Source: an uncultured Gallionellaceae bacterium
Lineage (GTDB): Bacteria; Pseudomonadota; Gammaproteobacteria; Burkholderiales; Gallionellaceae
Reading direction: 5' to 3'
DNA: 38,558 bases
Assembly: GCA_903913145.1 (NCBI GenBank)
Contig: CAIWKC010000240.1
Coordinates: 1 to 38,558 of the forward strand
The notes below the pieces were generated by a model. That model saw only the letters and a program-made list of their open reading frames with translations. It had not been told where the DNA came from and made no database searches. The translations under genes were made by a program, and so were the position numbers. Of the stretch, positions 1-30,543 are shown piece after piece; position 1 is the stretch's first letter, and each line of letters starts with the position of its first letter.

Positions 1-256
1 ACCCATCCTCCGGGAATGGCATTTCCATGCCTAAAAGTTCGTTGTAACGCACCCAAACACTCTGCGCGAGCATCCGCATCTGCCGGCCGGCGTCGTTCAG
101 ATAATATTCCGAATGCACCGTATGGCCCGTAAATTTGAGAATCCGCGCGAGACAATCCCCGACCGCTGCCTGGCGGCCATGCGCGATCGTCAGCGGCCCC
201 GTGGGATTTGCGCTCACGAATTCCAGAATGGCTTTTTTGCCTTTCCCGATATCCCC
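1..256 (-). CDS. argS: arginyl-tRNA synthetase fragment, N-terminus missing, 3' end beyond window
   Basis: Reading the minus strand gives an open frame starting [20 protein letters not shown] and continuing through [15 protein letters not shown] and GRQMRML to the window edge. This is the start of the class I catalytic domain of ArgS, with TIAH at the HIGH-motif position. ArgS normally has about 100 or more residues before this point. Here an in-frame TGA (257-259) lies immediately upstream of the GDI codons and there is no start codon, so the N-terminal domain is absent. The fragment is visibly GC-richer than the following sequence. It is either a real rearrangement remnant or an assembly join at about 251-257. 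The TIAHGRQAA wording differs from the HVGHGRQ form I expect in betaproteobacteria, which favours a foreign origin (inference). Confidence 0.8.
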
Positions 257-283
257 TCAACTTCTATTATTTTAAGCCGATAA
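257..283 (+). promoter_or_regulatory. candidate sigma-28 (FliA) promoter for the haem chemoreceptor
   Basis: A perfect -10 box GCCGATAA lies at 276-283. Eleven bases upstream, at 257-264, is TCAACTTC, which matches five of eight positions of the TAAAGTTT -35 consensus. This spacing is the one known for flagellar sigma-28 promoters, which commonly drive chemoreceptor genes. The next gene, at 323, is a chemoreceptor. The -35 box touches the point where the argS fragment ends. Confidence 0.6.
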
Positions 284-322
284 CACTCATGTCGAGTTTT
301 GTCGTATGTATCAACCTAGAAT

Positions 323-2239
323 ATGGATAAGAAAGAAAAACGATTTTCGTTTAATAACTTTCGCTTGCAGTCAAAGTTCCAGATCGTGGTTCATTCCATT
401 ACTTTGGTTTTATTTTCTATCGTAACGGTCATTCTTTACAGTGCGATCAAGTCAACTATTTTGGAGTCGGTAAAACTTCGTGCCAATGTGGTTGCAAACG
501 AAGTGATCGACGGTGCTAATCTCTTGATGGTAACGGGTGAAGCCAGCAAGCCTGAAAACAGGAAATTGTTAATACAAAAAGTGTCAAGTTCTGGAAATGT
601 TGTCGGTCTGCATTTAGTTCGTACCGAGCAAGTAATTAATCAATACGGCCCCGGTTTGCCTGAAGAACAAATTTCAAATGATTTGGAACGCAATGCGATT
701 GCGACCAAAAATCCATCCTACTTGCTTGAGGAAAGCAATGGCAGGCCAATATTTCGCGTAGTGACTCCGTACATTGTGAGCCATAATTTTCATGGCACGG
801 ATTGCTTAACTTGCCATAAGGTCGAGTTGGGCAGCGTCAATGGGGCGTCGGATATTGAAATTGATCTGAGTCCCGAGTTTTCCAAACTCAATACGATCAT
901 GCTGATGTTGATAATCGGGCAGATAATCGTACAGTTGATTCTGTTTTTTATAATTCGGGCGGTGATGAAACGTTATGTCATTCGTCAATTAAATGAAGTG
1001 ATGAATTTAGCGAGCCGGATATCTCAAGGTAATTTGACAGAGCGTATTGAAATAACCACTGATGATGAAACTGGCCAGATGCTGTCAGCACTGCAACATA
1101 TGGTTATCAAGATTCAACGGCTCATCGTTGAATTAAGCGCGTCCCTTGATCAAGTCTCCCAACAGGAAATCAATTTTCATTTTGTTCAGGAAGAAGGCCT
1201 TGAAGGTGATTTTCTAAAGTCTGCGCTGCTTACTAATGAAGCGTTAAGGTTAATTGCAAAACAAAGGCAACAAATACTTGATGAACTTTTTCTCGGCAAA
1301 TTAGATGGCATCAACAGTTCAGGCCTGCTCAAGAATCTGAACTACAGTCATGATGACTTGATGGAAGTTGCTCAAGTTGTTGACAGCCTTTCTTCATTTG
1401 CCGAGCAATCAGCAAAGGCAGCCATAGAGGGCGCAAATGAGTCAAAGCTGGCGACTGAACAGATCGAGCAATTATCAAGGCAATCAGCCGAATTGGAACT
1501 GGCAGTTAACCATTTGCATGCAGAAGGTGCGAAGGCACTGCTGGCCACGAAACAAATTGACGTTATTGTGAAAAAAGTTAACCTGCTTGCTTTGAATGCG
1601 GCTATAGAAGCAGCCAGGGCTGGCGAATATGGGAAAGGCTTTGCGGTCGTCGCGGATGAAGTGCGCAAGTTATCTGAAATGACGGCCGTATTTTCCAATA
1701 ATATCCGGAATTCCTTAACCGCTGTAGCTACTGATGCAGGAAATATGCAGAATTCAGCAAAGGCAATGAATGATGCAACGAAAGCCTCTTTGGAAATGAC
1801 TTATCAGGTGATGGAGAAACTTGAAAGAGTAAGTACTTCAGCGTCAACTTCAAGCAAATCGTCCCACCTCGCAAAGTCGCTCACCATCGCTTCACTTGCT
1901 AAAATTGACAGCTTTGCCATGAAACAGATCGCCTACAGAATTGCGAGAGAACCAAGCGAGGTTCATCAAGAGCAAATAGCTTTGGGTAGCATTGACGCTT
2001 TAACTGCCGAGTTGCCGGAGTCATATCGTAAAAATATCTTCGACTTGGCAATTTCATTGTCGAGCTTGATTAATATGGCTGTTGATTCTGGGCTTGCTCG
2101 CAATCATGATGTTGCCATTTTTGAAAAAATGGAAACGGTAAATGATGAGCTTTGTACAGCAATTAATGAAGCGCTTGTGGAGGTGCGAGGGGAAATGCAA
2201 GGTTCCCAAAGTGGCAACAATAAAATTGAATTGTTTTAG
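323..2239 (+). CDS. methyl-accepting chemotaxis protein with periplasmic c-type haem motif
   Basis: A 638-residue membrane chemoreceptor. TM1 is at about residues 20-41 and TM2 at about 190-213, enclosing a periplasmic sensor domain. That domain carries C161-L-T-C164-H165, a CXXCH c-type haem attachment site, and resembles the DUF3365/Tll0287-like haem sensors. A HAMP-like linker follows (about 213-265), then the signalling tip around 418-450 ([32 protein letters not shown]). The C-terminal 120 residues ([17 protein letters not shown]) look like a CZB chemoreceptor zinc-binding domain, but the usual His/Cys ligands are not in place. It probably senses redox state or a haem-bound gas and feeds CheA. 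Transcription is likely flagellar, from the sigma-28-like promoter at 257-283. It converges with the HD-GYP gene. The ligand is unknown. Confidence 0.9.
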
Positions 2240-2283
2240 GGAAATGCCTATAAGGTTTTTTTTGATCTGCTATCGATGCTAAC

Positions 2284-3474
2284 TCACTGAACCGCATACC
2301 ATTTAGCCTGATTTATTCCCCATTTTTCAAAGGATTCGTGAGAAACAATCTTGTCACCCGAGGTAGACAGATCTATTGTTTCCGGGGTGACATAGGACAG
2401 TTTTCGAGCATCAAAAATTACTTCCACGATCGGTTGCAACAGTTTATCGGTCACAATTTCTCTTACTATACCCAACTTCCCGCTACTCATCCGCACCAGT
2501 GACCCCGCCGGATAAATACCGATACCTTTAATAAACGCTTGAATTAATCGGGCATCAAAATGAGTATCTCTCCATTCGTACATTTTGCTTAGAGCTTCGG
2601 CGGGGGGCATTCCTTTGTGATAAACACGGACAGAGGTGATTGCGTCATAAACATCAACCAGCGCAATAATTTGCCCATGCAAGCTAATTTGATCACCTTT
2701 CAAACCATGCGGGTAGCCAGAACCATCAAACCGTTCGTGATGCTGCGCAGCAGCATTGAATGCGACTTCACTAAGGCCGTGCACTTCTTTAAGCAGTTCG
2801 GCTGTACTCACCACATGAGTTCTCATGATTGCAAATTCTGCATTATCCAACTTCCCGGGTTTGTTTAATATTTTGCCTGGCACTTTCGCTTTGCCAATAT
2901 CATGAAGAAAACCGCCGAGCACAACCTCTTTGATTTCGTTATATGGCAGTTCCAATACATACCCTAAAGCAACTGCCAACGCTGACACAGAAACGGAATG
3001 CTGAAATGTATATTCATCTTGATTTTTCATCTGGGCAAGAGGCAATAAGGCAGAAGGGCAGCGATTCATGGAGTCAAAAATATTGTCGACCACCGCGCCG
3101 CACTGTTCCAAATGAACTTGCTTTCCAAGTCGAACTTCTTTCATGAACTCTTGCATTAATTTACTGGCGTTGGAATATAACTGCCTTGCGTGATCAAACT
3201 CCTCCTCGGGAGAAAGTTTGGACAAAACCAGAGATGCCGATGCAGACTCTTCCGGGATGGGTGTTTCGCTGTCAATGGTTTCGCTGGCCACATCTATACC
3301 GAGTGTCGTATCTATTTCGACTTGCCCAACTTCCGAATTTACAATCGTCTGCAATGTTTCGGCATTTTCAATCGTGAAACAATGCCACGCAAAAGGGTGG
3401 CCCTCCCAAACACGATTGAGATCGTAGATGTACATGCCTATTTTAAGTTGCTCAATCTTGATTATCTTATACAA
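2284..3474 (-). CDS. HD-GYP domain c-di-GMP phosphodiesterase with DUF3391 N-terminus
   Basis: A 396-residue cytoplasmic protein. The N-terminus (KIEQLKIGMYIYDL) is typical of the DUF3391 domain that precedes many HD-GYP domains. The catalytic domain shows H191-D192 (FLHDIGKAKVP), H245-H246 and the signature GSGYP at 251-255, followed by DVYDA. HD-GYP enzymes hydrolyse c-di-GMP to pGpG or GMP at a di- or tri-metal centre, and the visible metal ligands look intact. The start codon is TTG, chosen because the DUF3391 sequence begins there; a GAAAGG lies about 13 bases upstream. It sits 48 bases after the stop of the PAS chemoreceptor on the same strand, so the two are probably co-transcribed. 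This suggests taxis signalling coupled to c-di-GMP turnover (inference). Confidence 0.92.
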   Translation of the reverse strand: MYKIIKIEQLKIGMYIYDLNRVWEGHPFAWHCFTIENAETLQTIVNSEVGQVEIDTTLGIDVASETIDSETPIPEESASASLVLSKLSPEEEFDHARQLYSNASKLMQEFMKEVRLGKQVHLEQCGAVVDNIFDSMNRCPSALLPLAQMKNQDEYTFQHSVSVSALAVALGYVLELPYNEIKEVVLGGFLHDIGKAKVPGKILNKPGKLDNAEFAIMRTHVVSTAELLKEVHGLSEVAFNAAAQHHERFDGSGYPHGLKGDQISLHGQIIALVDVYDAITSVRVYHKGMPPAEALSKMYEWRDTHFDARLIQAFIKGIGIYPAGSLVRMSSGKLGIVREIVTDKLLQPIVEVIFDARKLSYVTPETIDLSTSGDKIVSHESFEKWGINQAKWYAVQ

Positions 3475-3522
3475 GTTTATTTGGCCTTTCTGATACTTAG
3501 ATGATTGAATTTAATTATTTGA

Positions 3523-5646
3523 TCAAATCTTAAATCGCTCGGCATTTAACTTCAGTCTATGGGACAAAGCTTCAAGCTTGATGATGCTTTCCCGCGTGTT
3601 GCCTACTGCCAGATGGTTTCTTTCAGCCAACTGCGCAATTCCCTCAATGTTTTGCGCGATACTTTCGGTCGCCGCTTTTTGTTCTGTGACTGCATTCGCA
3701 ATTTCGGTCATTCCAGCGGTGGTTTGATCAACTGCGTTCCCCGCTTCCAATAACAAGGTGGACACTTGTTGTATATTCGTTTGCGTCAGGTGGATTGAAC
3801 GAACGCCCTGTTCAATGGCTTTTTCGACTTGACCGGATTGTGCATCCAACTCCCTGGTAATAGTGTCGATCTCTGACGCGGATCGTGCCGATTTCTCGGC
3901 CAACTTCCTCACTTCATCGGCCACCACGGCAAAGCCCCGGCCTTGCTCACCTGCTCGTGCTGCTTCAATCGCTGCATTCAATGCAAGCAAGTTGGTTTGC
4001 TCAGCAATATCCTTAACTTGTTGGGTCATACCTGCAATCGTACGAGCCCGATCAATAAAATGGTTTGCCGAATTATCAACCTGCTGCATAACCTGTTCTA
4101 TATTTGTGATCTCAGTGACAATTGCATCAACGTTCCGATTTCCCTCGCGTGTTAGTTTCGCGCTTTCACTCGCTTGCTGTCCTACTAGCGTTGCATTTTC
4201 TGCCACCACAGATATGCTGACGGCTACTTCCTCTACCCCTGCAGCGGTAGAGAAAGCAGATTCATTTTGCGCAATTGACCCTTGATTCACCTCGTTGGCA
4301 GACTGCGTCAAAGACTGTGCGGCTTTTTGCATTTCAGCAGAACCTTTTTTGACGTCGTCAATATTGGCGCTGAAATTGATCATGAGCTCGTTAAAGGCAG
4401 AGGATATCTGTCCCATTTCATCACGAGGGTTGATATTAGCTGATCGCAAAGAAAGGTCTCCTTCGGTGGCAGATTTAACCATGAGGTTGCGCACTTGGTA
4501 GGCGGATTGAGTAATGTTATGAACCAGTCTTAAGCTATAAAGCAACATAATACAAACGCTGGCAAACATCGAAATTAGCAACAGGTGGTTGGAATGTCTT
4601 GCATTATCGGAGATGGAGTTAGAAGCCTGATAAATATCGGTCATTTCATGATCTGCGTAAGCTTCAACTTTATCCATGACAGCATCGCGTAATGGAATCA
4701 CTTTTTTAATTGACAGATTGGCGGCTTCATCAAAATGGCCTGCGGCCAAGGCTGCTTTTGTTGGTAAAACTGCCTCTATTCGATATTGGTCAACTGCACT
4801 TTTCAATTCTGCAAATATCTTTTTGCCGTTTTCAGAACGAATGTCTTTAACGAACTCATCCATCTCCTTCTGCATGGCATCCAGATTATTATCAATTAAT
4901 TCGAGATGTTTGCTGGTCGGGTGATCATGAAGTAAAGAAATCCTTCCATTGGGATCGTGCTGTAACGCAAAGGTGATTTGGCCTCGGACATTGCTCGCGT
5001 GTTCACCTATTTTGTGAATATTGACTGCCAAATTTAAACGTCTTTTGGCCACATCTGCAAAAGCCTCGTCAGCTTGCTTTAACGCAAAATAACCCTGACT
5101 TGCATCAAACAGCATGGCGGCTAGCATCACACCAAATGCAAGCCATAACTTTGTAGCAATACGCTCTGGAATGAGCTTATGCCACCACTGCCTGCGTTTT
5201 GCCGCACGTCCGCTCTGCAAGACCAAGTCTCCTTGCTTGCCTTCACGAAATTTGCGGTAAAGAACGCCGGCAACTTCAACATCCGATCGAGACGGTTTGG
5301 TGCGTACAGAAACATAACCCACACATTTGCCATTCTCTAACACTTGGCTAACATCGGCATGAACCCAGTAATAAAGGCCGTCTTTGCGCCTGTTTTTGAC
5401 GATCCCATGCCAAGACTGGCCTTGCTTCAAGCATGCCCAGAAATCAGCAAAGGCTTCAACCGGCATATCGGGGTGGCGCAATAAATTATGCGGTTGCCCG
5501 ATCAATTCATTTTCTGAATAGCCACTGGCTTCGATAAAGTCCTGGTTGCATGAAACGATGGTGCCGCTGATATCTGTACGAGATACGATAAATATTTGGT
5601 CTGATAATAGATATTCTTTGTCGACAATGGGCTGGTTGTTCCTCAA
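3523..5646 (-). CDS. PAS-containing methyl-accepting chemotaxis protein (Aer-like with periplasmic helical sensor)
   Basis: 707 residues. An N-terminal PAS domain (about 10-120) has the Aer-like stretches [14 protein letters not shown] and DGLYYWVHA, so a flavin or other redox cofactor is possible. TM1 is at about 163-183, then a helical 4HB-type periplasmic domain to about 353, TM2 at about 354-372, HAMP, and a long cytoplasmic coiled coil. Its tip, [20 protein letters not shown] then [16 protein letters not shown], is canonical. Unlike E. coli Aer, it has two membrane segments and a full periplasmic domain, so it could integrate a cytoplasmic and a periplasmic signal. The start is TTG at 5644-5646, preceded by a strong GGGGAAAG Shine-Dalgarno. 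A near-perfect palindrome lies 65 bases upstream (5711-5732). It is probably co-transcribed with the downstream HD-GYP gene. Confidence 0.92.
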
Positions 5647-25966: not shown

Positions 25967-27400
25967 CTAAAAATCCCCTTTGCTGTGTTTTTTTAACGCA
26001 TTATGTTTTTGCAATGCTTCAATACGACTATACAAGGTTGTGCGGGCGATACCGAGAAATTTTGCCGCTTCACTCACATTGCCTCGGGCCAAATCCATGG
26101 CCATATCAACATGGAGGCTAGTATAGTCCATCAACTGCTGGTCCAGATTGAAGGTCCCTTGCTGCATGGCAAATTTAGCCTCGTTCAGATGCTCCGATAT
26201 CATGTCGCCTGACGGGGCACCGGTCAAATCAAGCTCGGCTTCCAATTCCGGCACATCAATTATTTGCCCCGGATATTTTGTTGTGAGTCGAATAACAATG
26301 TTACGTAGCTCTCTGGTATTGCCCGGAAATGAATAATTTTCCCACAATTTTTCCGCTTGTTCATTCAGGCGGAACGGGGTGTTTTGAGATTGAGCGGCAT
26401 AAAATTCGCGAAAATTTTCGAGCAACAAAAATTTATCGGAACTTAATGAACGCAGAGGGGGAACTTGAATGGTGAATATGCTTAAGCGGTGATATAAATC
26501 GACACGAAAATTGCCTTCACGAACGGCAGCTTTCAAATCATGGTTAGTTGCTGCAATGATGCGTGCCTTACTTTTTCGTGCGACAGTTTCACCGACGCGA
26601 TGAAATTCCCCATTTTCCAACACGCGCAACAATTTGGCCTGAAGTTCAAGTGGAATTTCGCCAATTTCGTCAAGAAATAATGTTCCCGCCCCGGCTTCTT
26701 CGAAGAAACCCACTTGAGAAGTTGTTGCGCCGGTAAAGGCACCTTTGATATGACCGAAAAATGCCGACTCAAGCAGATTGGAAGTAATAGCTGCGCAGTT
26801 ACAGACAATGAATGGTGCCGAACTATTGGAACTGAATTTTTGCAGGGTGGCTGCAACCAGTTCTTTTCCGCTACCCGACTCGCCTTGTATGAGCACAGGA
26901 TAGGGTGTTGCAGCATACAATTCAATTTGTTGACGCATCGCTTGCATGGGGGGGCTCGTTCCGATAATCACGGGACTGGCACTACCCTTTAAGGAGTCGG
27001 GAATTTTATCTTCAATCTGAATTCTGAGTGCGCTATGCAGTTGTGACTTGATCGTTTCAGGCGAGCAGGGTTTTGAAACGAATTCGATGGCCCCCAGGGC
27101 GCGTGCGTGTCTTGCGTTTGCCTGTTCATCCTGTCCGGATAAGGCAATAACCTTGAGTTTGGGCAAGTGCGCAAGCAACTCGGCAATTAGTCTAAAGCCT
27201 TCCTCCGGGCGATGCGGCGTAGGTGGCAAACCCAAATCGACAAGTGCCAGTTGAAGCGGTACGTCCATGTCACGCAACAGGCGGATGGCATGGGCACGAT
27301 CTTCCGCCAAATGAATATTAAATTCATCAGCAAGTGCATGGCGCAAACTGTCGCGAATGAGCGGATCGTCATCCACGATAAGTAGGGAAGGAAGGGTCAC
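25967..27400 (-). CDS. orphan sigma-54-dependent response regulator (NtrC family)
   Basis: About 477 residues from the GTG at 27400. A receiver domain (LLIVDDDPLIRDSL; phospho-acceptor D55 in LALVDLGLPP; Lys in SKPCS) is followed by an AAA+ domain with Walker A GESGSGKE and the sigma-54 contact loop GAFTGA. The C-terminal Fis-type helix-turn-helix is NVSEAAKFLGIARTTLYSRI. It resembles the PEP-CTERM-box/PrsR group of regulators. I prefer GTG 27400 over TTG 27460 because the receiver domain begins there and the extra codons lie in a perfect inverted repeat. No histidine kinase is adjacent. As first gene of the pilus operon it probably controls pilus or surface genes from sigma-54 promoters; I could not find a convincing -24/-12 box nearby. 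Confidence 0.9.
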   Translation of the reverse strand: MTLPSLLIVDDDPLIRDSLRHALADEFNIHLAEDRAHAIRLLRDMDVPLQLALVDLGLPPTPHRPEEGFRLIAELLAHLPKLKVIALSGQDEQANARHARALGAIEFVSKPCSPETIKSQLHSALRIQIEDKIPDSLKGSASPVIIGTSPPMQAMRQQIELYAATPYPVLIQGESGSGKELVAATLQKFSSNSSAPFIVCNCAAITSNLLESAFFGHIKGAFTGATTSQVGFFEEAGAGTLFLDEIGEIPLELQAKLLRVLENGEFHRVGETVARKSKARIIAATNHDLKAAVREGNFRVDLYHRLSIFTIQVPPLRSLSSDKFLLLENFREFYAAQSQNTPFRLNEQAEKLWENYSFPGNTRELRNIVIRLTTKYPGQIIDVPELEAELDLTGAPSGDMISEHLNEAKFAMQQGTFNLDQQLMDYTSLHVDMAMDLARGNVSEAAKFLGIARTTLYSRIEALQKHNALKKHSKGDF

Positions 27401-27430
27401 GCGGCTGTCCAAATGTGTCAATATTTGCCA

Positions 27431-27468
27431 AATTACGATTGCGCTCAGAATAGCCCGCAATCGTAATT
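27431..27468. promoter_or_regulatory. perfect 13-bp inverted repeat upstream of the sigma-54 regulator
   Basis: AATTACGATTGCG (27431-27443) and CGCAATCGTAATT (27456-27468) are exact reverse complements separated by 12 bases. The repeat lies 31-68 bases before the GTG start. There is no T-run on either side, so it is more likely an operator (possibly autoregulatory) or a stable hairpin in the 5' leader of the pilus operon than a terminator. Confidence 0.6.
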
Positions 27469-27644
27469 AACTCAAGTATTTGAAAAAATATGCTTTTGAA
27501 AAAATTGAGCAATCTATAAAAAGCACGGGGTCTAAATGATCGAGCGGACTCGCCAATCCATTACGCCCTCTTTTCCACAAGAGGGTGACAGGATATCAGG
27601 AGCTGGAGTATGCGCAGCTTGAATTTGAAGTGTTGATAATGCTT

Positions 27645-27863
27645 TAATTTTTGGCTATGTCCGTAAATAGAGTTGGTCATTTTTTCAAAATATTTCAACT
27701 GGTATACGCGAACACCCCCTCCCCCCCGGGGGGAGGGTTGGGGAGGGGGTGATTTTTAGTGTTGTGATAATCATGTTCGTATAATGGCTTATGACTTAAA
27801 AAGTCCATACACTGATTGACTTGCGAAACTACCAACGCTATTTACGGACATTGCCTAATTTTT
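27645..27863. mobile_element. MITE-like element with terminal inverted repeats and 8-bp target duplication
   Basis: The element body is 27653-27855 (203 bp). The left end GGCTATGTCCGTAAATAG and the reverse complement of the right end GGCAATGTCCGTAAATAG continue to 25 bp with 23 matches. Directly outside, TAATTTTT occurs at 27645-27652 and again at 27856-27863, an exact 8-bp direct repeat as made by transposition. There is no transposase gene, so it is non-autonomous. GG-starting ends and 8-bp duplications fit IS1595-like families (inference). A G-rich hairpin sits inside. It lies between the divergent pilus regulator and the outer-membrane barrel gene, where it could supply promoters or insulation. 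The rest of the 27401-28117 gap shows only a small CCCTCTT/AAGAGGG hairpin (27566-27585). Confidence 0.8.
27714..27750. repeat. C-rich/G-rich hairpin with G-quadruplex potential inside the MITE
   Basis: ACCCCCTCCCC (27714-27724) is the exact reverse complement of GGGGAGGGGGT (27740-27750). The G-rich strand 27728-27749 has four G runs of six, three, four and five separated by one or two bases, which meets the usual G-quadruplex pattern. It may be the structural core of the element or a separate repeat inserted in it. Confidence 0.7.
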
Positions 27864-28117
27864 TATAGAGGAGGGGAGGTGCTGTGGATTTGGGGGTGCC
27901 TCTCATTGAAAAAATCTTCAGTGTAAATATCAATTTATCTTATTGATAATAAGCAGAAATTCAAAGCGCCTGGAATTAAGCCCACAAACCCCCTCTTTTC
28001 ATTAAGTTGTTATCACTATTCCTGAAGTATTTTAAGCATTCAAAGGTAAATTGTCAGGACTGAGCCGCAGTGGTTGTGAAAAAGCATCATCAAAAGTTCA
28101 TTTTTGATATTAAGGGC

Positions 28118-28774
28118 ATGGAGTATTCAAAATATTTTGAAATGTTAAAAATAATGAGGCAAATTCTCTTGCTATTGTTTTTGTCGCCTTTGAGTTGCGC
28201 AGCTTTAACAGTTGGCGAAAATCGGAATAAGTATGTGATCGATTCTTATCCTGCAATGAATAACGGTGATAGAGGAAAATATCTTAACGTAACAAGTTCC
28301 AGTACATTCAATTCGACGCTTGATTCCAAATTTTCTTTGGTTGCTGAAAGTAGTTCCTCTTATGGTGTTTACTTGGGATACCAATTCAACAAGATTTTAT
28401 CCGTTGAAGGCGGCTACACATCGCTACTCACCGACACCATTGTGAAAGCTTCAAGCAATGCCATTGGTACTACTTCAATTTCAGGCGGAGAGGTTGCGAT
28501 GTTAATAAATTTTCCAGCATGGCAACTTCTTTCTCCTTTCATTCGGGTGGGGTCTGCAAGAATGCTTGAAACGGACGTAGTCAACGCGGCTTATGGGGGC
28601 GGTTCGACTAAAACCTCTCTTTCTGGAAATGTATTCGGAGTCGGGTTTCAATTTAACATCATGCGCGGGCTTTACCTCCGCGTTGGATACAACTCCTATA
28701 ACTTGAAAGACACGCCAAACACTTATACCCCGCATTTGCAAGACATGTATGGTTCCCTGATATATAAATATTAA
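28118..28774 (+). CDS. OmpA-like outer-membrane beta-barrel protein
   Basis: About 218 residues. A signal peptide (ILLLLFLSPLSCAA) is followed by alternating amphipathic strands (YGVYLGYQFNKILSVEGGYT, ISGGEVAMLINFP, LLSPFIRVGSARM, NVFGVGFQFNIMRGLYLRVGYNSY) and a terminal aromatic residue (SLIYKY), the pattern of small eight-strand barrels. The start is uncertain: GTG 28070, ATG 28118 and ATG 28142 are all in frame, and 28118 gives a plausible leader. The closest family word is OmpA N-terminal domain-like or OmpW-like; no peptidoglycan-binding domain is present. The propeller lipoprotein gene follows after 17 bases, probably in one operon. Confidence 0.75.
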   Translation: MEYSKYFEMLKIMRQILLLLFLSPLSCAALTVGENRNKYVIDSYPAMNNGDRGKYLNVTSSSTFNSTLDSKFSLVAESSSSYGVYLGYQFNKILSVEGGYTSLLTDTIVKASSNAIGTTSISGGEVAMLINFPAWQLLSPFIRVGSARMLETDVVNAAYGGGSTKTSLSGNVFGVGFQFNIMRGLYLRVGYNSYNLKDTPNTYTPHLQDMYGSLIYKY

Positions 28775-28791
28775 CTTGGAAAGACAGCCCG

Positions 28792-30543
28792 ATGCTGCTT
28801 AAATTTAAATCGATCACTCCTAGATTTTTGGATATTCGCTTTAGCCTCATTGTGATTTTATTCTTGAATCTTGCAAGTTGCGGAGGCGGGAATAGCAATT
28901 GGAATGGATGGCATAATGCTGCAGGAACTTGTATAGCGGGTTGTCCTATTGTTTCCCCCTCAGTTCTTTCAACTACACCGGTAAATACTGCAACCGCAGT
29001 GAATGTTTACACATCTATTTCGGCAGTATTTAGCACAGCAATGGATTCCGCTTCATTGACTTCAACAACATTTACTGTGAACAACGGAGTGACGGGGACG
29101 GTGAGCTATAACGGCACTACTGCCACCTTCACTCCTTCAATTAATTTGGCTCCTTCGACAACCTATACTGCAACCATCAATACCACTGTAAAAGATGTCA
29201 GTGGCGTTGCTATTGCGGCTCCTTATTCGTGGACATTTACGACAGCGGCAGCCCCAGTTGCACCCATTAACGTATATGCCATTTCGGGAATAAATAACAT
29301 GACGATCACCTGGTCGCCCGCTGTCGGGGCAAATTTTTACAATATTTACTGGGGAACAACGTCAGGTATTACCACTTCATCAAACAAAATTGCCGGCGCA
29401 ACCTCTCCCTATCTGCAGACCGGACTTACCGCAGGAAATACCTACTACTACCGGATAAGTGCGGCGAATACAGGTGGCGAGACACTTTCAAGCGAAATAT
29501 TTTCGTTCGTATACACGGGGGGAAGCACTACAGGACTTTTCGCAACAACCGGCAACATGGGCACCGCCAGATACAATCACTCTGCGACTCTGCTGCCAAA
29601 TGGCAAAGTACTTGTTGCGGGAGGCAGGGGAACTGCCTCTCTCTCATCTGCAGAAATTTATGATCCTTCAACGGGACTCTTTACTGCAACCGGCAGCATG
29701 ACAACCGCTAGACACGGCCATACAGCGAACCTACTTCCGAATGGCAAGGTGCTTATCTCCGGCGGAATTTCAGGAACGACATCTCTCGATACCGCTGAAA
29801 TATATGATCCTGCAACGGGTCTGTTTACAGCGACCGGCAACATGACAACGACAAGGGGATTTCACAGATCGACATTACTTCAAAATGGTAATGTGCTTGT
29901 CTCAGGAGGTCAGAGTAATAGCGGATATAACAACTCTGCCGAAATGTACGATCCTTCTACAGGTCTATTTACTTTGACTGGCAGCATGGCGACAGCGCGC
30001 GGCGATCATATAGCAACATTGCTCACGAATGGTAAGGTGCTGGTTTCGGGAGGGTATTCAGGAACAGCCTATCTCGCCACCGCCGAAATATATGATCCTT
30101 CAACAGGCCTATTTGCTGCGACTGGCAGTATGGGTTACTCAAGGTATTTTCACATATCAACACTACTTCCAAATGGCATCGTATTAGTTTCCGGTGGATA
30201 TTCGGGAACATTCTTTACCTATCTCGCAATCGCTGAACTGTACGACCCCTCAACAGGTCTATTTTCAGGGACTGGCAACATGACCAACGTAAGGGGTAAA
30301 CATACTTCAACGCTGCTTCCAAATGGTAAAGTACTTGTCGCAGGAGGACTGGGAAATAACGGGTACACCGCCACTGCCGAACTATTCGATTCTGCAACAG
30401 GATTAGGATTGTTTAATCCTATTAGCGATATGACAACCGCGAGGGGTGATCACACTGCGACGTTACTTCCAAATGGCAAAGTACTTGTAAATGGAGGTTA
30501 TGACGGGTCGGCAGCTATCGCTAACTCAGAACTGTTCTATTAA
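28792..30543 (+). CDS. lipoprotein with Big_5, fibronectin III and seven Kelch-like propeller repeats
   Basis: 583 residues. A lipoprotein leader ends in LASC-GGG (C30). Residues about 55-150 form a Big_5/SbsA-type Ig-like domain (SVLSTTPVNTATAVNVYTSI, FSTAMDSASL, TYTATI). Residues about 153-240 are a fibronectin type III fold (MTITWSPAVGANFYNIYWGT). The rest is seven tandem units of about 48 residues, each with the plan GLFxxTGxM-xxxR-xxH-xxTLLPNGKVLVxGG then AExYDPST. Seven blades would close one complete beta propeller. Such proteins face the surface or periplasm and bind polysaccharide or protein; the ligand is unknown. The last unit ends at the C-terminus with SELFY. Repeats are also clear at the DNA level, so copy number could vary. 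Confidence 0.85.
   Translation: MLLKFKSITPRFLDIRFSLIVILFLNLASCGGGNSNWNGWHNAAGTCIAGCPIVSPSVLSTTPVNTATAVNVYTSISAVFSTAMDSASLTSTTFTVNNGVTGTVSYNGTTATFTPSINLAPSTTYTATINTTVKDVSGVAIAAPYSWTFTTAAAPVAPINVYAISGINNMTITWSPAVGANFYNIYWGTTSGITTSSNKIAGATSPYLQTGLTAGNTYYYRISAANTGGETLSSEIFSFVYTGGSTTGLFATTGNMGTARYNHSATLLPNGKVLVAGGRGTASLSSAEIYDPSTGLFTATGSMTTARHGHTANLLPNGKVLISGGISGTTSLDTAEIYDPATGLFTATGNMTTTRGFHRSTLLQNGNVLVSGGQSNSGYNNSAEMYDPSTGLFTLTGSMATARGDHIATLLTNGKVLVSGGYSGTAYLATAEIYDPSTGLFAATGSMGYSRYFHISTLLPNGIVLVSGGYSGTFFTYLAIAELYDPSTGLFSGTGNMTNVRGKHTSTLLPNGKVLVAGGLGNNGYTATAELFDSATGLGLFNPISDMTTARGDHTATLLPNGKVLVNGGYDGSAAIANSELFY

Follow-up and report, generated by a model that had tools for sequence, protein, structure and literature searches.

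The divergent intergenic region studied here holds a short segment with inverted ends, and it raises the question of what this segment is, how it came there, what its GC-rich centre consists of and whether it changed the genes on its two sides. We analysed it within a stretch of 38,558 nucleotides, referred to below as the window, which is contig C240 of the host genome (a draft MAG with 439 contigs, a total of 3.61 Mb and a completeness of 93.4%). An initial annotation had described the segment as a MITE whose insertion could have rewired expression. The MITE reading stood, the rewiring found no support, and a separate repeat family at the GC-rich centre had been missed. We consider, at a probability of about 85%, that the segment is an IS1595-type MITE which was moved in trans by an IS1595-family transposase and is now a passenger, and that a second repeat, in shortened form, makes up its core.

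Structure of the element

The MITE body has 203 bp (27653-27855), and its parts are collected in Table 1. The 25-bp ends with 23 inverted matches, the length of the body and the exact 8-bp duplication were all right to the base in the initial annotation. The first 24 bp of the left end differ from the form GGCAATGTCCGTAAATAGCGTTGG at two positions at most and from GGCTATGTCCGTAAATAGCGTTGG at one at most. When the whole window was searched for inverted 25-mer pairs with at least 23/25 matches at a spacing of 100-700 bp, the MITE pair alone was found, and five dinucleotide shuffles gave 0 pairs at a spacing of 100-400 bp.

Table 1. Features of the MITE and its flanks, in window positions.
Feature	Position	Strand	Remark
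Regulator-side flank conserved in congener G006	26901..27513	.	76% over 616 aligned bp
Left target-site duplication, TAATTTTT	27645..27652	.	Identical to 27856-27863
Left terminal inverted repeat, 25 bp, GGCTATGTCCGTAAATAGAGTTGGT	27653..27677	+	
Left arm, conserved among family-A copies	27678..27712	+	80-98% over 56-61 bp, end included
GC-rich palindromic core, CACCCCC...GGGGGTG	27713..27751	.	Probably a shortened palindrome of a dispersed family
Right arm, conserved among family-A copies	27752..27830	+	80-93% over 97-103 bp, end included
Right terminal inverted repeat, GGCAATGTCCGTAAATAGCGTTGGT read from the right	27831..27855	-	23/25 to left repeat
Right target-site duplication, TAATTTTT	27856..27863	.	
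Outer-membrane-protein-side flank conserved in G006	27939..28900	.	86% over 962 bp

The MITE has no coding capacity, as had been stated: there is no ORF of at least 80 aa inside it, and no stop-to-stop frame of at least 100 aa overlaps it. No Rfam family matched the window at gathering scores. The predicted RNA fold of the MITE is much more stable than that of its shuffles on both strands (z of -6.6 and -7.6), which is expected of a MITE with a palindromic core; if transcribed, the MITE would fold into a long hairpin.

Copies in the host genome and distribution of the ends

With E values of up to 10 allowed, blastn of the MITE against its own genome listed 83 matches. The 20-base end motif, with up to three mismatches, was matched 41 times in this genome, while the reversed-pattern control was matched once. 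Paired related ends delimit 16 candidate elements including the window copy, so that the check for other copies yielded 15 further candidates, and these place the MITE beyond chance. In this count a 691-bp false pairing at C356 was left out, and a truncated pairing at C9 was replaced by the full C9 element of 255 bp.

A duplication of 7/8 or 8/8 bases, AT-rich in every case, accompanies 13 of the 16 candidates, in a search that let the ends shift by as much as 2 bases and thereby favours finding a duplication. At 11 of these 13 the duplication lies at the expected ends, and C107 and C175 require a shift of one end by 1 base; the three candidates with no 7/8 duplication are C366, C375 and C93. 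Stop-to-stop frames of at least 100 aa do not overlap 11 of the 14 own elements checked, and they touch C175, C356 and C87. In the congeners G006 and G007, one of seven paired candidates has a 7/8 duplication, with a 1-base shift, and some of these pairings may be false.

Among 60 relatives the end motif occurred in four genomes, namely the host, the same-genus G006 and G007, and G009 of another genus, which has one end. The order was sampled with 399 genomes, the host among them but not G006, G007 or G009; apart from the host, the sole match was an isolated end in G666. This end (L268) has no partner, and no obvious transposase was seen by eye among the ORFs. The exact end motif is present in two records of genome_contigs, both of them Gallionellaceae MAGs, the host's own records being perhaps left out there.

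Related ends closing 16 candidates, 13 of them with a duplication, together with a congener locus that lacks the element, mean that this is a real MITE. Its description as a transposed non-autonomous element is thus borne out by copies elsewhere with their own duplications and by the G006 locus. The initial annotation had named two things that would speak against it, no copies anywhere and presence of the element in all relatives; they are contradicted by the 15 further candidates and by G006. The MITE is an ordinary new family in a Gallionellaceae genus.

Insertion site and neighbouring genes

On one side of the MITE is a gene for a sigma-54 response regulator (PF00158, PF00072), and on the other side a gene for an OmpA-like beta-barrel protein followed by one for a Kelch/Ig-like protein. 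Close orthologues of the regulator gene are present in G005, G006 and G002. In G006 both flanks are conserved (Table 1), and the two conserved blocks are separated by 151 unalignable bp in which the MITE is absent. The search for an empty site succeeded in part: the orthologous locus of G006 has both flanks and no MITE, but it is no base-exact empty site, as the exact site is not preserved. G005 and G002 align to the window within the regulator gene only, have no alignable intergenic region and are uninformative on the MITE. Since the flanks are conserved in G006 without the element, the insertion is lineage-specific relative to that genome, and since the conserved blocks lie beside both genes, it took place in the unconserved middle of the intergenic region. 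A short hairpin, CCCTCTT...AAGAGGG, was also seen by eye on the regulator side of the MITE (27566-27585), in a stretch that is unconserved in G006.

The position between divergent genes and the strong predicted hairpin could suit an insertion that altered expression of the regulator or surface-protein genes. The blocks beside both genes are, however, conserved in G006 without the MITE, and a scan for sigma-70-type signals, the only type covered, found no promoter or terminator inside it. Rewiring of expression is for these reasons unsupported, and we regard it as unlikely. The same position, with a fold that is very stable on both strands, might also be expected of a hairpin that is a fixed part of the divergent region, with a regulatory or terminator function, and merely looks like a transposon. 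Such a hairpin would not have copies with related ends elsewhere, each with its own duplication, nor be missing from the orthologous locus of G006, and no promoter or terminator motif was found in it, so we give this explanation hardly any weight. The window copy is better seen as a transposed element which now would be a passenger in the unconserved middle of the region.

Candidate mobiliser

Transposase genes were searched with PF12762 in the host's own genome and in 150 genomes of the family, and the same 150 genomes were searched with the end motif. The end motif occurred in 12 of the 150 genomes and its reversed control in 16, mostly with one match each; because the control was as frequent, isolated ends with three mismatches were disregarded unless an IS1595 gene adjoins. 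The search located the form GGCTGTGTTCGTAAATCATGTTGG in G090 and G081, at two of three places beside PF12762 matches. This form shares 19 of its 24 bases with the MITE end GGCTATGTCCGTAAATAGCGTTGG, the inner GTTGG included. It is exact at the ends of L151 and L155, and the ends of L152-L154 deviate from it by 1-2 bases. L151 and L152 are IS1595 elements of 1081 bp, the former with the duplication TAAAGTTA/TAAAGTTA and the latter with a 7/8 duplication (ATAAAATT/ATAAGATT). In L153 and L154 the ends lie beside the transposase, with the left end 1 base off and no duplication, and in L155 both ends surround a shortened transposase gene. A complete IS1595 element of 1047 bp was found in the same-genus G005 (L157:1897-2943); it has the ends GGCTATGTCTGC and the duplication TTTTTAAA, and shares the first 9 end bases with the MITE. 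The transposases match NF033547, the IS1595 family, at 2.4e-53 (L151), 5.6e-52 (L153) and 1.8e-54 (L157). Duplications of 8 AT-rich bases are common to the MITE copies and to the complete elements L151, L152 and L157.

An IS1595 element with the exact MITE ends (GGCTATGTCCGTAAATAG) was found neither in the own genome nor in the 60 relatives, the 150 family genomes, the 399 genomes of the order or genome_contigs. The sole PF12762 match in the host genome (C292, L160:3262-4419, one in-frame TGA counted) has no MITE-like ends. The transposase gene with the same ends that the initial annotation had suggested looking for was thus not found, and the relatives gave only the related IS1595 ends (19/24). 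Among the IS1595 loci L121-L150, 28 of 30 lack ends plus duplication at the criteria used, and the remaining two (L143 and L149) have ends with a duplication which are different from those of the MITE, so only some IS1595 elements of Gallionellaceae share the MITE ends. L159 and L160 have no ends with duplication, and no MITE-like ends stand beside the gene in L158, L159 or L160.

The homology of ends and duplication makes IS1595 the best candidate mobiliser. The MITE resembles this family (NF033547, PF12762) in ends that start with GGC and are 19/24 identical to the G081/G090 form, and in its 8-bp AT-rich duplication. Unlike the IS1595 elements of 1047-1081 bp, it has 203 bp and no transposase, and no IS1595 parent with its interior or its exact ends was found. 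We infer that an IS1595-family DDE transposase acting in trans would recognise the ends of about 24 bp and move the MITE, leaving an 8-bp duplication of an AT-rich target. By title, no paper in the literature searched has an IS1595 MITE as its topic.

The palindromic core

Arm and core figures were obtained from the seven copies in which both arms were matched over most of their length; the shorter matches of the C366, C375, C9 and G006 copies, whose cores measure 78-266 bp as cut, were left out of the ranges. When the family-A copies are compared with the window copy, C143, C148, C175, C231, C356 and C79:10777 keep both arms, and the segment between the arms has 166, 233, 54, 167, 33 and 254 bp, respectively, while that of the window copy has 40 bp. 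Across these seven copies the core thus occupies one and the same place with a length of 33 to 254 bp. The family-A cores are nested palindromes by eye. We take the arms to be the MITE proper. What lies between them is probably a second repeat in shortened form, one of the dispersed C/T-rich palindromes.

A second group of elements has related ends and other arms, with the palindrome CCCGACAAGTCGG in C92 and C333 and variants of it in C79:4139 and C107. In this group the CCCGACAAGTCGG-like palindrome lies at the centre of the element (L094:5013-5211, L097:2898-3107, L100:2140-2361 and L099:2940-3161). The C87 element (L090:1109-1370), again with related ends and other arms, has the core palindrome GTCATTCCCGCG. 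This core consists of two CGTCATTCCCGCG repeats in inverted orientation, which look like REPs of the CGTC class, with CGTC adjoining ATTCCCGC. There is no GTAG or CGTC tag in the core sequence of the window copy, the only copy to which this statement refers. Integron attC sites and CRISPR repeats were considered for the identity of the core and rejected, as only dispersed, variable palindromes were seen.

When the window core was compared with its own genome by blastn, it gave 10 matches to C104, with 84-91% identity over 34-41 bp (E 3.5e-7 to 2e-3), and four of these 10 are palindrome units adjoining a DUF559 domain. The C104 locus (L165, G000:C104:1500-6500, frame 2-4816) has an open frame of 1604 aa with several in-frame C/T-rich palindromes and with helicase, HA2, OB and DUF3418 domains, and from this architecture we take it to be hrpA. 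The DUF559 domain in it (PF04480, E 3.7e-39) is enclosed by two C/T-rich palindromes, and its only match to a solved structure is 3hrl, named endonuclease-like protein (E 6.5e-25). The score of the window core against each of four hrpA palindromes was reached by 0 of 300 dinucleotide shuffles, and the cores of two G006 MITE copies also scored above all 300 shuffles. Judged from these sequence comparisons, the window core is a member of the palindrome family that flanks DUF559 in the host genome.

Two other explanations concern the origin of the MITE and of its core. The families ISL3 and IS66 also make 8-bp duplications, and a mobiliser from such a family would agree with the lack of a parent with identical ends; it is improbable in view of the 19/24 end bases, inner GTTGG included, which IS1595 elements of Gallionellaceae share with the MITE, and of the AT-rich 8-bp duplication common to IS1595 elements of the same bacterial family. 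The core might also be no mobile palindrome at all but a GC-rich hairpin whose length changes within the MITE through slippage or template switching; this is possible but doubtful. Core lengths vary widely, the inverted segments are nested, and no core-less MITE copy that would document an insertion of the core was seen. But the same units are dispersed outside MITEs, in frame in hrpA among other places, and the match of the core to these units goes beyond composition. We therefore prefer an IS1595-type MITE with a second repeat in its centre.

DUF559 and palindromes beyond the host

To 32 Gallionellaceae DUF559 loci, 30 of which were scored as two lie too near contig ends, we applied a run criterion chosen after the loci had been seen, and found pyrimidine- or purine-rich runs within 200 bp on both sides at 27 of 30 and on one side at 3 of 30. 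Both-sided runs were found at 0/30 PF12762 loci, at 1/20 regulator loci and at 0/52 boxes elsewhere on the same contigs. In a motif-free test, a locus was counted as positive if the inverted similarity of its two 250-bp flanks was above that of all 100 shuffles. With 22 of 31 Gallionellaceae DUF559 loci long enough for this test, 21 of the 22 were positive, as were 19 of 28 DUF559 loci of other Pseudomonadota (L239-L266; L267 left out), the loci being the best-scoring ones returned by searches and not a random draw. Positive controls numbered 0/18 for regulators and 3/22 for PF12762. The 19 loci show that the association of DUF559 with inverted repeats in its flanks extends beyond Gallionellaceae.

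In 14 hrpA loci, which were picked for DUF559 within a long frame, the domain stands before a PIIQVSGRTYPVE-like motif (first site) in 11 and before PATYEQIHKALL (second site) in three; the pattern read the first site in 12 of the 14 loci and the second in only four. In the host hrpA the first site has DUF559 and the second a palindrome-only insert (57 aa), whereas in the hrpA of G133 it is the first site that has the palindrome-only insert (49 aa) and the second that has DUF559. One element occurring in full and in miniature would give this arrangement, which is an association and not proof of movement.

In other Gallionellaceae, DUF559 also occurs in frame in genes which, by their motifs, we take to be methyltransferase-like (L232-L237; two sites, by eye) and methionyl-tRNA-synthetase-like (L238). 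The DUF559 domains of L232-L238 are bounded by linkers that resemble palindrome-encoded ones.

The window MITE may thus carry the miniature of an undescribed mobile element, a reading that we put forward tentatively and at slightly less than even odds. The element would consist of a gene for a DUF559 (Vsr-like) endonuclease between C/T-rich palindromes, would insert in frame into host genes and would shed palindrome-only derivatives. DUF559 would then be the mobiliser of a palindrome type widespread in Pseudomonadota, in the way that homing endonucleases act with inteins and introns, and the MITE would be a second-level vehicle. DUF559 could instead ride between palindromes that are moved by something else. 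The link between DUF559 and the palindromes is potentially new as an association, and the mechanism proposed here is hypothetical.

Taken as a MITE, this family of a Gallionellaceae genus is useful without being unusual, and IS1595 is a credible mobiliser for it. Of wider interest is the tie that its core makes between one particular enzyme and a dispersed palindromic repeat. Should DUF559 indeed move the palindromes, a single small protein would be enough to test directly how they spread as in-frame inserts. A domain of unknown function would then gain a role, and the MITE would be a clear case of one mobile element carrying another.

Comparison with known repeat systems

Bacterial MITEs such as RUP, NEMIS and ERIC, as listed in PMC3733652, are similar to the present family in being short, with inverted ends and a duplication, no gene, a mostly intergenic location and many copies. 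Unlike those MITEs, it combines constant arms with a palindromic core whose length ranges between 33 and 254 bp among seven copies, and quite different palindromes, CCCGACAAGTCGG and GTCATTCCCGCG, occur in other elements whose ends are related. The same source describes REPs of the GTAG and CGTC classes as short palindromes that often occur in opposite pairs (Di Nocera et al. 2013, PMC3733652), and reports them sometimes inside other palindromes and inside genes, including those of RNA helicases and tRNA synthetases. The core of the C87 MITE is like the CGTC-class REPs described there. The C/T-rich palindrome of the window core was not met in the parts of PMC3733652 consulted; CCCTC begins no word in that paper, and DUF559 has 0 occurrences in it. 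Among the publications that mention DUF559, none concerns palindromic repeats as judged by title and the start of the abstract, in a search with most subscription journals and preprints outside its range.

Rickettsia palindromic elements (RPE) are palindromes in frame within genes, according to PMC3733652 and PMC10969869. The hrpA repeats of the host are like RPE in being inserted in frame, and they are unlike RPE, as described there, in that two of the hrpA palindromes enclose a DUF559 endonuclease-like domain.
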